From NCBI GenBank assembly GCA_900473805.1, contig UCMS01000006.1, positions 295,736-359,735 of the forward strand: 64,000 nucleotides of DNA, in the 5' to 3' direction. The notes under the pieces are model-generated. The model worked only from the letters and a program-made list of their open reading frames with translations, did not search any database and was not told where the DNA came from. Each line of letters begins with the position of its first letter. The first letter of the stretch is position 1. Positions 41,973 through 49,323 of this stretch are shown here, in pieces. Origin of the DNA: Hyphomicrobiales bacterium. Lineage in GTDB: Bacteria; Pseudomonadota; Alphaproteobacteria; Rhizobiales; Rhizobiaceae. Both the position numbers and the translations under genes were made by a program.

Positions 41973-43082
41973 TTAGCGATCCAGGATCGCGCGGATCTCA
42001 ACCATGTTGGATCGAACGCGGAGGATATAGAAACCCATGGTCGCGAGATGCGTCGGCATGATCCAGCCGTCTTCGCTGCCGTTCGAGATGATGGCCGGCT
42101 GGATGCGCAACGCGCCCTGAAGCTGCCGCTCCATTTCGGTCCAGACGGCGGTCAGGTTGCGCTCGCGAATGACCTCGCCGAAATCGGCACGGGTTGCCTG
42201 CAGCAGCGCATACTGCGCATAAAGCTGGCCATAGGCGAACCAGAAGCGGTCATCCGCACGCGTGTCGAACCAGCCGGCATTGAACTCTTCCGAGCGACGG
42301 CGAAGGATGTCGGTGGTGTTACCGAGATCGCTCGCCATGCCGTCGAGCAACTGCAACAGATTGTCCGATCGGGTGTCGAACACGGATTCGCAGTTTGCGA
42401 GCGAGGTGTTGAAGCGGTTCCAGCTTTCAACGGCCGCACGATAATAGCTCGGCGTCGGCGTCTTGAAGCCGAAGGGGTCGGTGCCGAAATACCATGTGCC
42501 CTCATCGAACTGGATATTGCCGCGGGCATCCTGGAGATCATTGTTGATCCCGGACGTTCCGCGCACACGACCGAGATTGTCCGCGAGCTGGATCGCCGTG
42601 CGGCGCACGACCTGGTTCACCCCACGCTGGAACGAGGCCTTGTTGTCCATGAAGGGCGTATTGTCCCAGTCGAGCCCGAACAGGCCGAGCTTGTAGAGCA
42701 GTGTCGAGGAGATCCAGGCATTTTGGTTGACGTTCTGGTCGGTCAGTGCAGCCGACATCATGACGACCGCCGAATCCTGGCAGCGATTGGCCTGGTTCGG
42801 CAGCGGCGCCCCGGCAGGGACCGTGCGCTCCTGGAACTTGTAGGACTGAGCAAAGGCCGGATCGAAACCGTACCATACCTGGGTCCGGTAGATGAACTGA
42901 CCGTAGAAGACCAGAAGCAACACGAGCACTGCCAGGATCGGCCCCTTGATGATCCAGCTGCGGTCGCGATACCAGCCATGCGCTGCCAAAAACGGCCAGA
43001 GCAGCCAGGCGACCACCATGCCGATGCCGCGACCGATGGCGGCAAAGACGCGCTGGAAAAACGCGATGATCGGGTCAAGCAT
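41973..43082 (-). CDS. DUF2333 family inner-membrane protein
   Basis: 369 residues. One hydrophobic segment near residues 40-60 (GPILAVLVLLLVFYGQF) anchors a large domain, likely periplasmic. DUF2333 is recognised by VWYGFDP, NQANRCQDSAVVMMSA and the C-terminal helical repeats ending MVEIRAILDR. Its function is unknown. The ATG at 43082 has AGGAG 8 bases upstream and overlaps the preceding gene's stop by 8 bases. It is the last gene of the minus-strand AAA+ block. Confidence 0.85.
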   Translation of the reverse strand: MLDPIIAFFQRVFAAIGRGIGMVVAWLLWPFLAAHGWYRDRSWIIKGPILAVLVLLLVFYGQFIYRTQVWYGFDPAFAQSYKFQERTVPAGAPLPNQANRCQDSAVVMMSAALTDQNVNQNAWISSTLLYKLGLFGLDWDNTPFMDNKASFQRGVNQVVRRTAIQLADNLGRVRGTSGINNDLQDARGNIQFDEGTWYFGTDPFGFKTPTPSYYRAAVESWNRFNTSLANCESVFDTRSDNLLQLLDGMASDLGNTTDILRRRSEEFNAGWFDTRADDRFWFAYGQLYAQYALLQATRADFGEVIRERNLTAVWTEMERQLQGALRIQPAIISNGSEDGWIMPTHLATMGFYILRVRSNMVEIRAILDR

Positions 43083-44370
43083 GGTCATCTCCTAGTCCAT
43101 AGAGGCGTTTGCGGAAGGTGGCCTTGTCCTTGAGATAAGTGTCGGACAGGCGGGATACAACATAGTCGCGATAGGCTTCCGGGTACCGCTCATAGGCGCG
43201 GTAGAATCCCTGCTTGTCGAAGACGAAGCGCGAGACGAAATCTTCGGGCGTCAGGTGCGCGATCAGCCGGTTCGTCAGCCACTGATCGGGATGGCTGGGT
43301 TCGGCCCGCACCAGCCAGAGCCTGAGTTTCGGATCGATATCGGCCATGCGCAGATTGCCCGTGCGCGACAGCGTCCGCAGCGCCTCCTGCAGCAGCGGAT
43401 AGACGCCCCGCTCGTTGATCGCCTTGGCGTGCCGATGCAGGAAGGTCTGCATCCACACGGCGTCGATGCGGGTGAGATCGGGCACCGGATCAAGCGTCGC
43501 GGCAACCGAGAGCAGCGCCATTTCCAGCCGATGGGCGAAAAGGCCTGAGCTTTCCACCCAGCTCGCCCGCGGCAATTCCAGCCGGCCGGTGCGCGCGAGG
43601 AAATCGCCGACCTGTGCCGTGTCCTCGATCGAGATATAGCTGACCTGCCAGGGCCGCGACCGCCGGAAGCCGGGGGCCTCGGGATCGCAGATCACGGTGG
43701 TGATTTTCTCGTCGACGAAGACGAAGACGCCGCCGAAGTGATCGGCCCAGAAGGCATCATGGCGAAACACGAGTTTATCAGGCACCAGCGTATTCTGGCG
43801 GATATCGCCGGTCTCCTTGGCAAGCGCCACCATCTGCTCCAGCATGGCATTGTCGCGCCAGGCATCCGGGCTCGTCACCAGCGCGTCGCAGAGCTGGCGC
43901 AACTGCCCCGCCTTGCCGAGCAGGTCTTCCGCCGACAAGACCTTGAACTTCACCTCGTTGATGGAAAGCAGATCCTCGAGCGTCTTGACCTCGGAAACGC
44001 TATCCTCGATCTCGCCATAGAGCGTGTCCTTCAGCGTGATCGCATGGATAGCGCGTGCATTGGCGGCGAAGAACTCGTGCATGAGGCCGGCGGTGTTTGA
44101 GAAGCTCGTATGCACCACCGGCAGGCTGTCCTGCTCCGGCGTCAGGATGATGAAGCGCCGGTTGACCTTCAGCGGGTCGAGATAATCGGGGTCCCCCAGT
44201 TCCTCCGCCACCTGTGGCGAAAAACCGGTGATGTCGATGTCGAATTCGGCAAGCTTCGTCTCCGGCAGGCCGAAAGCGACGAGGGCCTTGTTGTAGCGGG
44301 CAATCAGATGCGGCTCACGGATGGGCAGCAGACGGCCATAGATGAGCTCGGCTTGGAGGAGGCGGTTCAT
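43075..44370 (-). CDS. Conserved protein of unknown function in the AAA+ block
   Basis: 431 residues, no membrane segment or signal peptide. I cannot place it in a family with certainty; it may be the group catalogued as DUF6638. Recognisable pieces are GRLLPIREPHLIARYNKAL at the N-terminus, KVNRRFIILTPEQ and VHTSFSNTAGLMHEF in the first third, and CDPEAPGFRRSRPWQVSYISIEDTAQ in the middle, the last looking like an enzyme-like or scaffold domain. The ATG at 44370 overlaps the antitoxin stop by four bases (ATGA), so translation is coupled to the toxin-antitoxin pair. It is 8 bases overlapped by the DUF2333 gene downstream. Confidence 0.8.
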   Translation of the reverse strand: MNRLLQAELIYGRLLPIREPHLIARYNKALVAFGLPETKLAEFDIDITGFSPQVAEELGDPDYLDPLKVNRRFIILTPEQDSLPVVHTSFSNTAGLMHEFFAANARAIHAITLKDTLYGEIEDSVSEVKTLEDLLSINEVKFKVLSAEDLLGKAGQLRQLCDALVTSPDAWRDNAMLEQMVALAKETGDIRQNTLVPDKLVFRHDAFWADHFGGVFVFVDEKITTVICDPEAPGFRRSRPWQVSYISIEDTAQVGDFLARTGRLELPRASWVESSGLFAHRLEMALLSVAATLDPVPDLTRIDAVWMQTFLHRHAKAINERGVYPLLQEALRTLSRTGNLRMADIDPKLRLWLVRAEPSHPDQWLTNRLIAHLTPEDFVSRFVFDKQGFYRAYERYPEAYRDYVVSRLSDTYLKDKATFRKRLYGLGDDHA

Positions 44371-44777
44371 GCGTTGTCTGCGACCTTCCTGTCCTCTTGG
44401 CGCCAATAGAGGTCGTCGAGGTCGATCTTGAGGGCGTCGGCAATGGCTTTCAGCGTGGCAATGCTGCCGTCCTTCTTGCCGGTCTCGATCTCTGACAAGA
44501 AGGCAGTGCTGATCCCGGCAGCGGCGGCAAGATCCTTGGCCGACATGCCCCGAAAATCGCGCCACACGCGGATCGGGCTTTCACCTTCGCTCATCCGGTT
44601 GACGTATACGGCAGGGACCAGTTCCTCCTCGCCGGCCGCAAGCTTGCGCTCGAAATCCGCAATCGAGAGGCTGTCTTCCAGATCCTCGATGCGCTGGATC
44701 AGCGCCTCATAGTCCTTGCGGCTCAGAACGATCATCTCTTCGCCGTTTGGCGTCGTGAATGATGATGCAATCGTCAT
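44367..44777 (-). CDS. Antitoxin, Phd-like N-terminus joined to a helix-turn-helix
   Basis: 136 residues. The N-terminal part (about 1-45) resembles Phd/YefM antitoxins (NGEEMIVLSRKDYEAL), and the C-terminal part (about 75-130) is an XRE-type helix-turn-helix (AKDLAAAAGISTAFLSEIETG). It is thus a hybrid antitoxin. It should neutralise the RelE/ParE toxin encoded just upstream and repress the pair's promoter. Its start overlaps the toxin stop by one base region (TGATG), and its stop overlaps the next gene (ATGA). Confidence 0.85.
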   Translation of the reverse strand: MTIASSFTTPNGEEMIVLSRKDYEALIQRIEDLEDSLSIADFERKLAAGEEELVPAVYVNRMSEGESPIRVWRDFRGMSAKDLAAAAGISTAFLSEIETGKKDGSIATLKAIADALKIDLDDLYWRQEDRKVADNA

Positions 44778-45037
44778 CAGAGCTCTCCCTCATAGGCTTC
44801 TCCGCGTGCTGCCACGCGTATCACATCAACGACGGTTCCATCTTCCCCGAAGATCACCCGCCAATCGCCAATCCTGAGACGATAGTAACGGCTGTCCTTC
44901 AACTTCTTGACATTGTTGGCCAAAGACGCCGGATCCTCGGCATATTGAAGGACCTTCGACCGAACGCGCCGAGCCTCGTTGGCCGGCATCCGGTTCAGTG
45001 TCCGGATCGCATGTTTGCTATACACAACCTCCCGCAC
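44777..45037 (-). CDS. RelE/ParE-family toxin
   Basis: 86 residues with the RelE/ParE fold: KHAIRTLNRMPANEARRVRSKV in the first helical hairpin, DPASLANNVKKLKDSRYYRLRIGDWRVIF in the strand core and VIRVAARGEAYE at the end. RelE-type toxins cleave mRNA on the ribosome; ParE-type toxins inhibit gyrase. The class cannot be told from sequence alone. It lies between the AAA+ ATPase gene and its antitoxin. Toxin-first order with the antitoxin downstream is found in HigBA/RelE-HTH modules. Confidence 0.87.
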   Translation of the reverse strand: MREVVYSKHAIRTLNRMPANEARRVRSKVLQYAEDPASLANNVKKLKDSRYYRLRIGDWRVIFGEDGTVVDVIRVAARGEAYEGEL

Positions 45038-45069
45038 ATCCTAGCCCTCGACACCTGAACAGACAAGGA

Positions 45070-45088
45070 AATTCGCTGATAGCGAATT
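45070..45088. terminator. AT-rich hairpin at the end of the AAA+ gene
   Basis: An 8-bp perfect stem AATTCGCT/AGCGAATT with a 3-base loop overlaps the stop codon of the AAA+ gene. It has no T-run, so it could be a weak terminator, a processing site or an operator for the toxin gene. Confidence 0.4.
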
Positions 45089-47001
45089 CACCACATCCCC
45101 TCCCCCTTCATTCGCTCGATCTCCCCGATCGCCCGCTCGCGCTGCCGCTCCCTTCGAATGATCTCGCTCACCGCCGCATCGTCCGACTTGTCGGCATAGC
45201 GGAATTCGCTGTCAGCGTAGCGGTTGATCTCTTGGCAGATCATGTCCATGGTCACCGGACCGCGCAGCTCAGATATCATCGCCTTCTTCTCGTCGTAGCT
45301 CTTGTGAACGAAAGCCTCGGGGCTTTCGAACCAGGCGTCGGGCAGTTCGACATCCATCGCCCGCATCTTGATCGCATCGGTGATGTTCTTGATGGCCCGG
45401 CCGGTGAAACGCGGTTCGGCGAGCTTGATCGCATGCAGATAGGCGCCGACATCGGCGAGCGTTTCGATCTTGCCCTCGCTCTTCTCGAAGCGTTCCCAGA
45501 CGGCCACGAGACCATCTTCCTTGGGACGGTCATGCTCGCCATAGGAGCGGCTGACGGCCTTCTGGATCTCCTGGCCGGCGAACAGCTGGTGGTCGCCGAG
45601 CGGGATCTGATGATTCTTGCCGACGAGCAGCGAGAAGATGTCGATATAGTCCTCGCGCGTCTGCGGCCCATCGACCAGCCAGCGGGCACCGGCGCGCTGG
45701 CGCAGCGCATCGTCGACATTCTCGGGATAGTTGGAGAACATGCCGAAGGTGGCATTGCCCCGAACTACGGTCGAGGCGCCGGCAAAGCTTTCCATCAAGA
45801 CGGCTGTCACCTCGTGCTGACCGGCCGAGGCCCGGTCGTCCGAACGCTTCGCAGTCACCTGGTCGACATCGTCGATCGTGCCGAAGCCGATGACGCGCGG
45901 ATTCAGCACGTTGTTGACGAAGCTTTTGCAATTCTGGCCCGACTTGCCCTGATAGGACGAGATCTGGTCGACGCCGAAATTCTCGTAGTGGAAGGCATAA
46001 CCTGCCATCTTGCAGTAGTCGTTGAGCAGCCCTGCCAGCATCTGGATCAGGATCGTCTTGCCCGTGCCCGGCATACCGTCGCCGATGAAGGTGAAGAGGA
46101 AGCCGCCGAGCTCGACGAAGGGGTTCATCTGCCGGTCGAAATCATAGGCCATCAGCATCTTGGCGAGCTTCAGCGCTTGATACTTGGCAATGTGGTTGCC
46201 GATGATCTCTTCCGGCTTCTTGAAGGTCATCGTGAGCGGCTTCGACTTCGCGCCCGGCACGCCATCGAAACCATCAAGCGTGAAATCGTCCTGATCGACG
46301 CGGATATGGGCGTTCTCGAAGACACCGAGGTGTTCGAAGCGCGCCTTGCGGGTCAGAAGCCCGTCAAGCGCGAGATCGGCCAGACCGCGGACCCGACCGA
46401 TCAGCGTCGCATCGTCGCCCGCGCCCTGCACGGCCGTGTCGATACCGGCGACCATGCTCTTCAGCGCATCCTGGGCGGTATCGAAGAGGAAGTCCGGTTC
46501 GCGGATCCCGTCGAGCTGCTCGCCCTCTCCCGCCACGGTGGACTTGAGGTAGGCAGCAAAGGCAAAGGCCGCGACATAGGCCTGGGAGGCAAGCAAGGCC
46601 TTGAAGCGGGCGGCCTCCTCGCCCTGCAGGGGTGCCGAGATATTGCGGGCCTGCAGGAGTTCAAGCTCGCTCTGCCGGGCAAAGACATCGGCGATCGCGA
46701 GCGCCACCTGGGCGCCGCGCCGAACGCGATAGAGCACGGTGTGCTGGGCCGGCGTCAGAAGCTGATCGGCCGTACCGGTCGACTGGATGGTCTTGGCAAG
46801 CTCGATCTCGCGCGTGCGGCGCACCGAGCCCGTCGAAACGGTGGAGACGAACCGCCGCCCGGTGCCGGCGATCGGGGCGCCAGAGGCGCCGTCGCCCTGA
46901 TCGAGAACGATCACTCGCGTTACCAGTCCCTGGGCGACAGCGAGATGTTTGGCGATATCGTCTTCGCGGAGCGTCGTCAGCCCTGCCGTCAGCTCGCTCA
47001 T
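45088..47001 (-). CDS. AAA+ ATPase, unknown role
   Basis: 637 residues. A long N-terminal region (1-290) has no recognised domain. The AAA+ module has Walker A GDGMPGTGKT (about 307-316), Walker B IGFGTIDDVD (about 371-380), a sensor-like MFSNYPENVDDAL segment (about 421-433) and an Arg-rich RQRAGAR that could supply the Arg finger. The C-terminal part is helical and ends in many charged residues. There is no signal peptide or membrane span, so it is cytoplasmic. It begins 2 bases after the stop of the gene before it (47004), so the two are cotranscribed and translated in step. The target is unknown; a remodelling role for a membrane complex is a guess from the neighbours. Confidence 0.85.
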   Translation of the reverse strand: MSELTAGLTTLREDDIAKHLAVAQGLVTRVIVLDQGDGASGAPIAGTGRRFVSTVSTGSVRRTREIELAKTIQSTGTADQLLTPAQHTVLYRVRRGAQVALAIADVFARQSELELLQARNISAPLQGEEAARFKALLASQAYVAAFAFAAYLKSTVAGEGEQLDGIREPDFLFDTAQDALKSMVAGIDTAVQGAGDDATLIGRVRGLADLALDGLLTRKARFEHLGVFENAHIRVDQDDFTLDGFDGVPGAKSKPLTMTFKKPEEIIGNHIAKYQALKLAKMLMAYDFDRQMNPFVELGGFLFTFIGDGMPGTGKTILIQMLAGLLNDYCKMAGYAFHYENFGVDQISSYQGKSGQNCKSFVNNVLNPRVIGFGTIDDVDQVTAKRSDDRASAGQHEVTAVLMESFAGASTVVRGNATFGMFSNYPENVDDALRQRAGARWLVDGPQTREDYIDIFSLLVGKNHQIPLGDHQLFAGQEIQKAVSRSYGEHDRPKEDGLVAVWERFEKSEGKIETLADVGAYLHAIKLAEPRFTGRAIKNITDAIKMRAMDVELPDAWFESPEAFVHKSYDEKKAMISELRGPVTMDMICQEINRYADSEFRYADKSDDAAVSEIIRRERQRERAIGEIERMKGEGMW

Positions 47002-47003
47002 GC

Positions 47004-48155
47004 TCAGACCTCGCTCACAATCTGGTTTCCTGAAATCACATGCACCTTGAAATTGCCGAAGATCGCCTTGACCTCGTTCGCCGCGTAAAGCGCCTGATAC
47101 GCATCATGCGGCACGAGCGCGTGTTTCTCATAGGTCGAGACACCCATGCGCGCGGCTTCCAGATCATGCGTCTCGATATGGAATTCCTGCGAGGCCGGGG
47201 TCGAGGAGAAGAAGCCTTTCACCGCCGGCTGCTCGCGCTTGGAGAAGACCTCCTGCACGGTCCAGGTCATCACCCAGGCATTCTCAGGCTTACGCACCCG
47301 ATCAAGGATTTCGGTGACCCGGCCGGAATTCTGCGTGAGACCCGTCGAGTAGAGCGGCCCGAGCACGATGCGTCGCACCGACTTCGGATGAAGGTTCGGG
47401 AAATCGCGGTCCATATTGGTCGCGATCGTTGCCGGCGTCAGGGAATAGGCAGAATTCTTCGCGCAGAAATCATCGAAGCTGCGGGCAAGCTCCGGATTGA
47501 GCAGGCCGCCGACCGGCAAAGGGATCTCTACTTCCTCGTTCAGCCCGCCGTCCTCGGTCACGAGGATCTTCGTGACGTTTTCAGAGGAATCCTCGACCGT
47601 CGCCAGATAGATCATCGGCAGCGTAGTCACGCCGTCGAAGGCGGCCCAGCTCACGAGATAGGACGGACGGCGCGACTGCGGGTTGACCGTCACGGCGACG
47701 GTGGTTGGCAGGACGAAGGGCGAGAAGATCTCGCCGGCGCCGACCTGTTCGAGATAGAGCCGTTCAGCGATCTGCTGCTGCAGGGCCGAGGGGAAATCCT
47801 TCTGCCGCAGGATGAAATCGACCATCTCCTCGCGCAGCTTGTCGACATCAGGAATGGTCGAGAGCCGCGTCTGCGCCCCCGCCCGGTCGTTTTCCAGTTC
47901 CAGAACGTTCTGGAAGATCGGAAAGCCGCTTTCCGCCTGGGCGATCTTGAACTGGCCCGTGAAGCCGATCCTGTTCTGCCAGGAGGTGAAGGAGTTCCGC
48001 AGCCGGTCTAGATAGGGCAGCATATGCAGCGTCGGCGGGCCCTTCTCGCCAAAGCGGCGATCGTTCTGCCCGAAGAACTGTTCGAGACCGGCCAGTGCCG
48101 CAGCCATGGTAGCAAAGTAGTGCGACACGGCACTGTTGCGATCGACGACGTTCAT
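47004..48155 (-). CDS. Conserved protein of unknown function in the AAA+ block
   Basis: 383 residues with no signal peptide or membrane segment. No family recognised. It has a mainly alpha/beta look with segments such as LHMLPYLDRLRNSFTSWQNR, KDFPSALQQQIAERL and RRIVLGPLYSTGLT. The ATG at 48155 has GGGAGGGG 6 bases upstream, which decides the start against an in-frame reading 30 bases longer. It lies 79 bases after the coiled-coil gene and 2 bases before the AAA+ gene, so an operon is very likely. A partner or adaptor of the ATPase is a fair guess. Confidence 0.8.
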   Translation of the reverse strand: MNVVDRNSAVSHYFATMAAALAGLEQFFGQNDRRFGEKGPPTLHMLPYLDRLRNSFTSWQNRIGFTGQFKIAQAESGFPIFQNVLELENDRAGAQTRLSTIPDVDKLREEMVDFILRQKDFPSALQQQIAERLYLEQVGAGEIFSPFVLPTTVAVTVNPQSRRPSYLVSWAAFDGVTTLPMIYLATVEDSSENVTKILVTEDGGLNEEVEIPLPVGGLLNPELARSFDDFCAKNSAYSLTPATIATNMDRDFPNLHPKSVRRIVLGPLYSTGLTQNSGRVTEILDRVRKPENAWVMTWTVQEVFSKREQPAVKGFFSSTPASQEFHIETHDLEAARMGVSTYEKHALVPHDAYQALYAANEVKAIFGNFKVHVISGNQIVSEV

Positions 48156-48234
48156 GCCCCTCCCCCGCTTAGACAATCTGCGCATCCGGGAAGCGGCACG
48201 CGGCTAAATCGCCGCGCCCACATTTCCCGCATGA

Positions 48235-49323
48235 TCAGGGCTTCACGTAGTTGGCAGCGTCATGCTTGTCGAGAACCGCCTGGAAGCGCCGGGCGAAAGC
48301 CTCGTCGGCGAGCTTCTTGCGGCGCTGGATGTCCTGCGTGGAGAGCATGTTCTTCTCGTGCAGCTCCAGCAGGTCTCCGATATGCCGCTGGGCAGCCGCA
48401 CCGATGCCGGCCATGGTTTCCTCCGCTGCCGTATCAACCTGGCTGCCGAGCGTGTTGATCCGATGCGCCACATCCTGCTGGGCGGCTGTCTTCAACGAGT
48501 CCTCGAGCGCCTTGTAAAGAACGATGCGCTGTTCGGTGTCGATCGTCAGCTTGTTGATCAGCGTGTTCTGCGCGGCGATCTGGTTGTTCAAGCTGTCCAC
48601 GAAGGTCTGGAACATCGAGGTGTAGCGTTCCAGCGTCTGGCTCTCGGCCAGCAGCTCCTGTTCGCGCGCCTGGGCCTGGTTGTAGTCGGTCGCAAGCTTC
48701 GAGCGCTCGGCTTCCAGCGCCGTGCGCTCCGAGGTGTCGGTCGAGGCTGCGATCTTGTTTTCGATGTCGAGCAGCGCCGGGTTCAGCGTCTCGATCTTCT
48801 TCTGAGTCTCTTCGAGATTGGCAATCGTCTGCTTGCGCCGCTCGATCACCTGCACGAGGCTCGCCTCGGAGGTCTTGTAGCGCTCTTCGAGAACAGTCTT
48901 CTGCTCCTTGAGGATGCCGACGATGCTGTCGGACTTCGCAAGCAGCTCCTGCAGATTGCCGGCGAGCGACATGTTGCGCACGCGCTCCGTACGCATGCGC
49001 TGCGCCTTCTGCTTGGAGAAGATGCCGACGAACTTTTCCATGCCGGAAAAGCTCTTCATGCTTTCGAACTCGGCGCCGAACACATTGGTTGCGTCTTCAA
49101 GCCCGATGATCAGGTCGGCGATATTCGCCTCCATCACCTTCTGCTGGTTGAGGACATCGGAGATCCTGGCATTCTCGATATCGAAATCCTGGCCGGTGAG
49201 CTTGCTGTCGCTCCTGGCCAGCGTGTCGAGCACCACGCCGGACTGCTCGATCTTGCCGCGCATCTCGGAGACGACCTTGCGTGTCTTCTCGATCTCGCTG
49301 TCGAAGGATTGCAAACTCGCCAT
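48235..49323 (-). CDS. Coiled-coil protein, first gene of the AAA+ block
   Basis: 362 residues. Most of the protein from about residue 60 to 320 has coiled-coil character, rich in Glu, Gln, Leu and Lys with long heptad-like runs (for example LEETQKKIETLNPALLDIENKI and ERSKLATDYNQAQAREQELLAE). There is no signal peptide or membrane segment. A loose resemblance to toxic-anion-resistance (TelA) proteins is possible, but not firm. The ATG at 49323 has AGGAGAG upstream. It heads the operon that runs to the DUF2333 gene. Confidence 0.78.
   Translation of the reverse strand: MASLQSFDSEIEKTRKVVSEMRGKIEQSGVVLDTLARSDSKLTGQDFDIENARISDVLNQQKVMEANIADLIIGLEDATNVFGAEFESMKSFSGMEKFVGIFSKQKAQRMRTERVRNMSLAGNLQELLAKSDSIVGILKEQKTVLEERYKTSEASLVQVIERRKQTIANLEETQKKIETLNPALLDIENKIAASTDTSERTALEAERSKLATDYNQAQAREQELLAESQTLERYTSMFQTFVDSLNNQIAAQNTLINKLTIDTEQRIVLYKALEDSLKTAAQQDVAHRINTLGSQVDTAAEETMAGIGAAAQRHIGDLLELHEKNMLSTQDIQRRKKLADEAFARRFQAVLDKHDAANYVKP

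Follow-up and report, generated by a model that had tools for sequence, protein, structure and literature searches.

A conserved four-gene AAA+ ATPase set in Rhizobiaceae and more distant bacteria, with a lineage-specific envelope partner and an in-operon exchange slot for toxin and nuclease genes

The 64,000-nucleotide stretch of Rhizobiaceae DNA analysed here (part of contig UCMS01000006.1, assembly GCA_900473805.1; hereafter the window) contains a block of seven open reading frames (ORFs) at 41973-49323, all on the minus strand, which in the direction of transcription encode a coiled-coil protein, a 383-residue (383-aa) protein, an AAA+ ATPase, a toxin-antitoxin (TA) pair, a DUF6638 protein and a DUF2333 envelope protein (Table 1). 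The ORF call reproduced the tight single-strand run described in a first-pass annotation of this DNA, with gaps of 79 bases (48235/48155), 2 bases (47004/47001) and 50 bases (45088/45037), and overlaps of 1 base between toxin and antitoxin (44777), 4 bases (44367-44370) and 14 bases (43075-43088). That annotation took the seven genes as a unit, possibly an envelope-associated remodelling machine. Comparison with other genomes divides the block differently: the coiled-coil, 383-aa, AAA+ and DUF6638 genes are a previously undescribed bacterial four-gene set, which is accompanied by an envelope protein that differs between lineages and is interrupted by a slot with changing cargo.

Table 1. Features of the AAA+ gene block in the window
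Feature	Position	Strand	Basis and remarks
Coiled-coil protein, 362 residues, first core gene	48235..49323	-	only sub-cut-off Pfam matches
383-aa core protein	47004..48155	-	helical N-terminus; predicted tunnelling-fold-like domain ~159-345; without Pfam family
AAA+ ATPase, 637 residues, classic single-ring type	45088..47001	-	Pfam AAA E 1.2e-9
Exchange slot from AAA+ to DUF6638, here with TA pair	44371..45087	-	junction lengths, occupants, orientation, tree, control DNA
ParE/RelE-superfamily toxin, GTG start, slot cargo	44777..45037	-	PF05016 E 2.2e-7
Helix-turn-helix (HTH) antitoxin, slot cargo	44367..44777	-	HTH_3 E 4.2e-11; stop overlaps DUF6638 start
DUF6638 protein, 431 residues, fourth core gene	43075..44370	-	PF20343 E 1.4e-72
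DUF2333 envelope protein, lineage-specific partner	41973..43088	-	PF10095 E 2.5e-20; one predicted transmembrane segment by hydropathy (45-63)

Profile searches named five of the seven products. The ATPase scored 39.1 bits with Pfam AAA (PF00004; curated cut-off 21.2), the 431-residue protein that the first-pass annotation had left without a name is DUF6638, and the adjacent toxin and antitoxin scored 31.8 bits with ParE_toxin and 43.1 bits with HTH_3 (23 for both cut-offs), making them a predicted type II TA pair. For the DUF2333 protein, the part C-terminal to the transmembrane segment is presumably periplasmic. No Pfam family was found for the 383-aa protein at E <= 1 or above cut-off for the coiled-coil protein, with 28 and 38 members of the respective families also scanned, and NCBIfam and PADLOC scans of the core proteins gave nothing further. 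Homology between parts of the block was considered and rejected (hhalign E 0.16 or worse). The closest relative found was Rhizobium rosettiformans W3, with 98% identity for the AAA+ protein.

The rhizobial comparison covers the 80 top-ranked among 581 confirmed relatives in the genome collection, and in 79/80 of these loci the coiled-coil, 383-aa, AAA+, DUF6638 and DUF2333 genes follow each other in the same order on one strand; the exception (L078) is a stretch that begins 111 bases before the AAA+ gene, so that the first two genes are missing. The first four of these genes are also in order in all 13 distant loci (L098-L110, from three families of Alphaproteobacteria and from genome G329 of another class), as well as in one Rhizobium leguminosarum plasmid stretch and both Vibrio megaplasmid stretches inspected, the Vibrio AAA+ proteins being 39-40% identical to that of the window. 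As the order is kept in rhizobial, distant and plasmid loci alike, the core consists of these four genes, which are thus not scattered among relatives, in line with the grouping first proposed from the window. On the Vibrio megaplasmids (L140:9641-18756, L141) two small hypothetical genes lie ahead of the core, and an mfd-like gene comes directly behind it.

Among 289 genomes of the class there were five full-length AAA+ matches (seven at the E limit, two of them short generic AAA proteins), and DUF6638 was present in 26/398 genomes of the phylum. Within the Rhizobiaceae the AAA+ gene was found in 88 of the 151 genomes compared, all 88 also containing the coiled-coil gene, while genome G754, from the window's own genus, has neither. 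The AAA+ gene is further present in 59/101 genomes of the order of genome G022, which we take to be the Rhodobacterales, and in 1/229 genomes of the class of G329. The Rhizobiaceae locus is chromosomal and its flanks are similar between genomes. A phage origin of the core was rejected, with zero matches across 50,697 phage records.

The TA pair lies at the one junction of the core that varies strongly in length. The distance between the AAA+ and DUF6638 genes is at least 400 bases in 56/97 loci, against 6/96 for the coiled-coil/383-aa junction, 3/96 for the 383-aa/AAA+ junction and 0/94 for the DUF6638/envelope junction (250-343 bases in 16 of the 94), and where this slot is empty the two genes nearly abut. 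Of 93 slots, 35 were empty, 27 contained a DUF559 gene, 15 an HTH/ParE pair of the window type, six a ParDE-like pair and ten a rarer occupant (PIN, AbiJ_NTD4, DUF3825, PLD or weakly DUF4145-like proteins, three small hydrophobic proteins and two without identified family). Individual cases are the AbiJ_NTD4-domain protein of L099 (9462-10481), an endonuclease-domain gene together with an insertion sequence in the slot of Sinorhizobium meliloti Ak57 pSymB, and a 566-residue PLD-family gene which fills the slot of L063 (12047-13744) on the opposite strand, the only clear case of this orientation. The DUF559, antitoxin and toxin matches that were scored (29, 15 and 19, respectively; 63 in total) are all co-directional with the AAA+ gene. 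Across 1.93 Mb of fetched flanking DNA these matches occur in the slot only, counting two DUF559 matches (L065, L082) that start inside the end of the AAA+ gene and overlap the slot, and which were initially scored as lying elsewhere; the four occupant profiles had no matches in 1.2 Mb of control DNA (60 stretches, 20 kb each; G000, G348, G752/G720).

When mapped on the AAA+ tree (93 rows), the occupant has changed at least 35 times, and near-identical AAA+ genes can carry different cargo (e.g. L016 vs L027 and L067 vs L072). Both acidic motif elements are kept in 24/27 DUF559 occupants, the other 3/27 being broken, so that these restriction endonuclease-like proteins mostly look intact from their sequences, while the toxin gene of L009, a close relative, is frameshifted. 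With occupants being exchanged between relatives, the TA pair of the window is to be regarded as the present occupant of the slot, not as a component of the system. This is where the seven-gene unit of the first-pass annotation breaks down: a homologous TA pair was found in only 15/80 loci, in the slot each time, and beyond the Rhizobiaceae DUF2333 too lies outside the core. The idea of a seven-gene machine in the literal sense, with the TA pair as an integral part, could appeal to the tight packing and to the overlap of the antitoxin stop with the DUF6638 start, but in view of those 15 loci, of close relatives with DUF559, another TA type or nothing in the same position, and of the L009 frameshift, we consider it scarcely credible.

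The same slot raises the alternative that the locus is a modular immune or abortive-infection system, in which the core and its envelope protein sense invasion or membrane damage and control the toxin or nuclease in the slot. This would fit the nature of the cargo (DUF559, two TA types, PIN, AbiJ_NTD4, PLD and others), its concentration and uniform orientation at a single junction, its frequent replacement, the lack of its profiles in control DNA and the mostly intact DUF559 motifs. Less easily accommodated are the 35/93 loci that have an intact core but nothing in the slot, the fact that TA cargo brings its own antitoxin, and the broken cargo genes. Matches of the core to PADLOC were weak (the AAA+ protein with TRIP13 at E 0.00099, the coiled-coil protein with LmuB at E 0.0015) or, for the 383-aa, DUF6638 and DUF2333 proteins, absent, and at E <= 0.01 PADLOC left 8/10 of the scanned slot proteins unmatched; the chromosomal location with similar flanks in Rhizobiaceae is unlike that of a mobile defence island, and the phage records gave no matches. 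We therefore regard an immune function as rather improbable, although of the rivals it is the strongest for surprise. A specific version, in which the constant assembly of AAA+, tunnelling-fold (T-fold)-like and coiled-coil proteins would control the slot toxin or nuclease as an immune or stress-triggered response, with lineages having swapped both the effector and a membrane sensor (DUF2333 or DUF1523), we would rate as slightly more doubtful again.

In contrast to the slot cargo, the envelope partner is constant within a lineage. A DUF2333 gene lies at most 6 kb downstream of the AAA+ gene on the same strand in 80/82 Rhizobiaceae genomes, where 82 is the number of AAA+ genomes, out of 88, with both genes on one contig; in five the genes are on different contigs, and in the remaining one the DUF2333 scan found none, yet DUF2333 is present, interrupted by the contig end. 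In the order of G022 a DUF1523 gene takes its place, at most 3.2 kb downstream in 59/59 AAA+ genomes, and DUF1523 likewise follows DUF6638 in 13/13 distant loci. DUF2333 as part of the core was therefore rejected, as it is missing from all 13. The membrane-anchored neighbour seen in the window is thus a regular companion of the AAA+ gene in the form of a single-transmembrane protein in Rhizobiaceae, and is replaced by a different envelope protein in another order. No relation between the two families was detected (hhalign E 0.16), and the DUF1523 proteins checked have two transmembrane segments by hydropathy versus one in DUF2333. Both are distributed more widely than the AAA+ gene: DUF2333 was found in 114 of the 151 Rhizobiaceae genomes against 88 for AAA+, including 27 genomes without AAA+, and DUF1523 in 98 of the 101 genomes of the order of G022 against 59. 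In a full-text search of one library of open-access papers, DUF1523 was named in four and DUF2333 in one, which in the portion available places a DUF2333 gene near the hcp locus of a type VI secretion system, without giving it a function. At L125 (8806-12055) DUF2333 lies near a PspA gene on the same strand, as it does by coordinates in G300 of the same family; a general link between DUF2333 and PspA was rejected, as this arrangement was seen in only one (L125) of 27 DUF2333 loci without the coiled-coil gene, plus G300.

In loci without the AAA+ gene, DUF2333 may be alone (L150, L156); wherever a recognisable coiled-coil gene remains, DUF2333 is directly preceded by it (7/7 loci: L111-L114, L151, L152, L155). 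These copies allow a comparison of coiled-coil proteins with and without the AAA+ gene. Residues 271-300 (KALEDSLKTAAQQDVAHRINTLG) are conserved in the 34 AAA+-linked copies, where they are among the most conserved segments (0.85 and 0.73), and are poorly kept in the seven AAA-less copies, which match the AAA+-linked consensus at 9-12% with 38-72% gaps, versus 44-49% at residues 241-270 and 331-345 of the same copies. The segment is also retained in AAA+-linked copies of the coiled-coil protein that are themselves diverged to 39-40% identity (L110, Vibrio). Membership of the PspA family was set aside, the similarity not being significant (hhalign against PspA_IM30: E 0.0095, probability 4%, reversed control 0.027), with PspA not among the 25 of 69 families listed in the Pfam scan of the 38 members; membership of TelA was set aside likewise (E 0.079 against 0.068 for the reversed control, with only seven TelA rows).

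The AAA+ protein is equipped for catalysis. Lys315 and Thr316 (Walker A), the pore-loop Tyr350, Asp377 and Asp378, the sensor-1 Asn424, and the arginine fingers Arg436 and Arg440 are identical in 31/31 members, the roles following from the general anatomy of AAA domains, while the N-terminus (approximately 1-280) and C-terminus are family-specific. The catalytic position of Walker B is Asp378 in all 31, the usual Glu being missing; ATPase activity is plausible despite this conservative change, and the protein stays within the classic AAA family because its other features and the profile fit. In S. meliloti 1021, where we take choX to be SMc02737, the AAA+ gene would by gene order be SMc02733. 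A fragment bound by ChvI, an envelope-stress regulator, is placed inside SMc02733 in the part of PMC3687685 consulted.

The other two core proteins were approached by modelling. The 383-aa model has a beta-beta-alpha-alpha-beta-beta order of elements (strands 164-173 and 180-189, helices 221-235 and 241-251, strands 255-270 and 294-309) with one extra short helix at 192-198, and T-fold enzymes occupied 39/50 rows of the VIA second look at this model, so that it resembles the T-fold, albeit not conclusively. Among papers linking the T-fold with AAA+ or coiled-coil proteins, none was found that concerns the present system, judged by title. For DUF6638 the AlphaFold2 model is of moderate quality (pLDDT 75.8, pTM 0.67), and the VIA second look gave no coherent fold match for it; full-text search of one library found DUF6638 named in no open-access paper. 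A VGPWGA-like C-terminal motif is present in 11/13 DUF1523-linked DUF6638 proteins (L098-L105, L107-L109; twice in L107 and L109) and in 0/16 others.

From the composition, synteny, motifs and envelope linkage we infer, tentatively and at somewhat less than even confidence, that the four core proteins may form an AAA+ remodelling machine at the inner membrane. The coiled-coil protein would be the client or recruiter that links the envelope protein to the threading ATPase, with residues 271-300 engaging the assembly of AAA+, T-fold-like and DUF6638 proteins and with other parts working with the envelope protein. Pulling by an AAA+ hexamer would next act on the coiled-coil assembly, or on whatever proteins this assembly gathers, and would disassemble or extract them at the membrane face, and the TA pair would stand outside the machine as present cargo of the in-operon slot. 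The machine suggested by the first-pass annotation hence survives in part: the syntenic block, the catalytically equipped AAA+ protein, the coiled-coil partner and the envelope neighbour are retained, while the TA pair and DUF2333 as a core member are not.

Several observations weigh against such a machine. The Walker B substitution is one, and the coiled-coil protein is not significantly related to either PspA or TelA. Segments 16-30, 211-225, 301-315 and 346-360 of that protein also match at only 10-13% in AAA-less copies, so that 271-300 is distinguished only by how well it is conserved in the AAA+-linked copies and is a pointer, not proof. The plasmid-borne cores (L139-L141; R. leguminosarum and two Vibrio) have neither DUF2333 nor DUF1523 within the fetched DNA. 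Finally, L153 (3772-16845) is split at the AAA+/DUF6638 boundary, with the coiled-coil, 383-aa and AAA+ genes on one strand and DUF6638 and DUF2333 approximately 6 kb away on the opposite strand, and in L154 approximately 21 kb separate AAA+ from DUF2333 (DUF6638 was not located there).

The plainest rival is a cytosolic AAA+ module acting on a specific non-envelope client, with DUF2333 and DUF1523 as mere stable neighbours downstream that share its promoter and the slot as a tolerated insertion site for small selfish genes. It would agree with the two envelope families being older and wider than the core and unrelated to each other by hhalign, with cores that occur without either, and with the split of L153, which falls at the slot and may thus mark the boundary of two transcription units. 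It leaves the 80/82 and 59/59 linkage with two different membrane proteins to be explained, as well as the coiled-coil gene that remains with DUF2333 once AAA+ is gone, and we consider it unlikely, if worth keeping in mind.

Whether the core is a membrane-associated remodelling machine or one of these alternatives, the comparison separates a constant part of four genes from the exchanged parts, i.e. the membrane partner and the toxin cargo, for core families to which none of the libraries searched here assigns a function. It also makes specific questions testable: the contact region between coiled-coil and AAA+ proteins, a T-fold-like ring, and whether the cargo works for the system or rides along. 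A slot within an operon that trades toxins so often would be informative either for immunity, as a case of effector exchange, or for TA and nuclease biology, with regard to why this site is used.

Among known systems, anti-phage systems with exchangeable effectors share, as a kind, with this locus a constant core and a fixed position for varied toxins or nucleases, and differ from it in that here there is no PADLOC-known core protein, many slots are empty and the place in rhizobial chromosomes is fixed. Tunnelling-fold enzymes (urate oxidase, PTPS, DHNA, GTP cyclohydrolase I) have their element order in common with the 383-aa model. The AAA+ protein has its own terminal regions, a Walker B Asp and unique operon partners, unlike the classic remodelling ATPases (p97/CDC48, proteasomal, AFG2, fidgetin-like, i-AAA), with which it shares Walker A, an aromatic pore loop, the sensor Asn and two arginine fingers; by sequence it comes closest in the PDB to AFG2, fidgetin-like 1, the i-AAA protease and proteasomal ATPases, although the similarity is weak throughout (E approximately 1e-3 to 1e-4). 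The PspA/ESCRT-III (Snf7)-AAA+ membrane-stress systems, as described in the portion of PMC11237479 consulted, differ in that the coiled-coil protein of the window is not detectably PspA, while in both cases a coiled-coil protein is encoded together with an AAA+ ATPase near an envelope protein.

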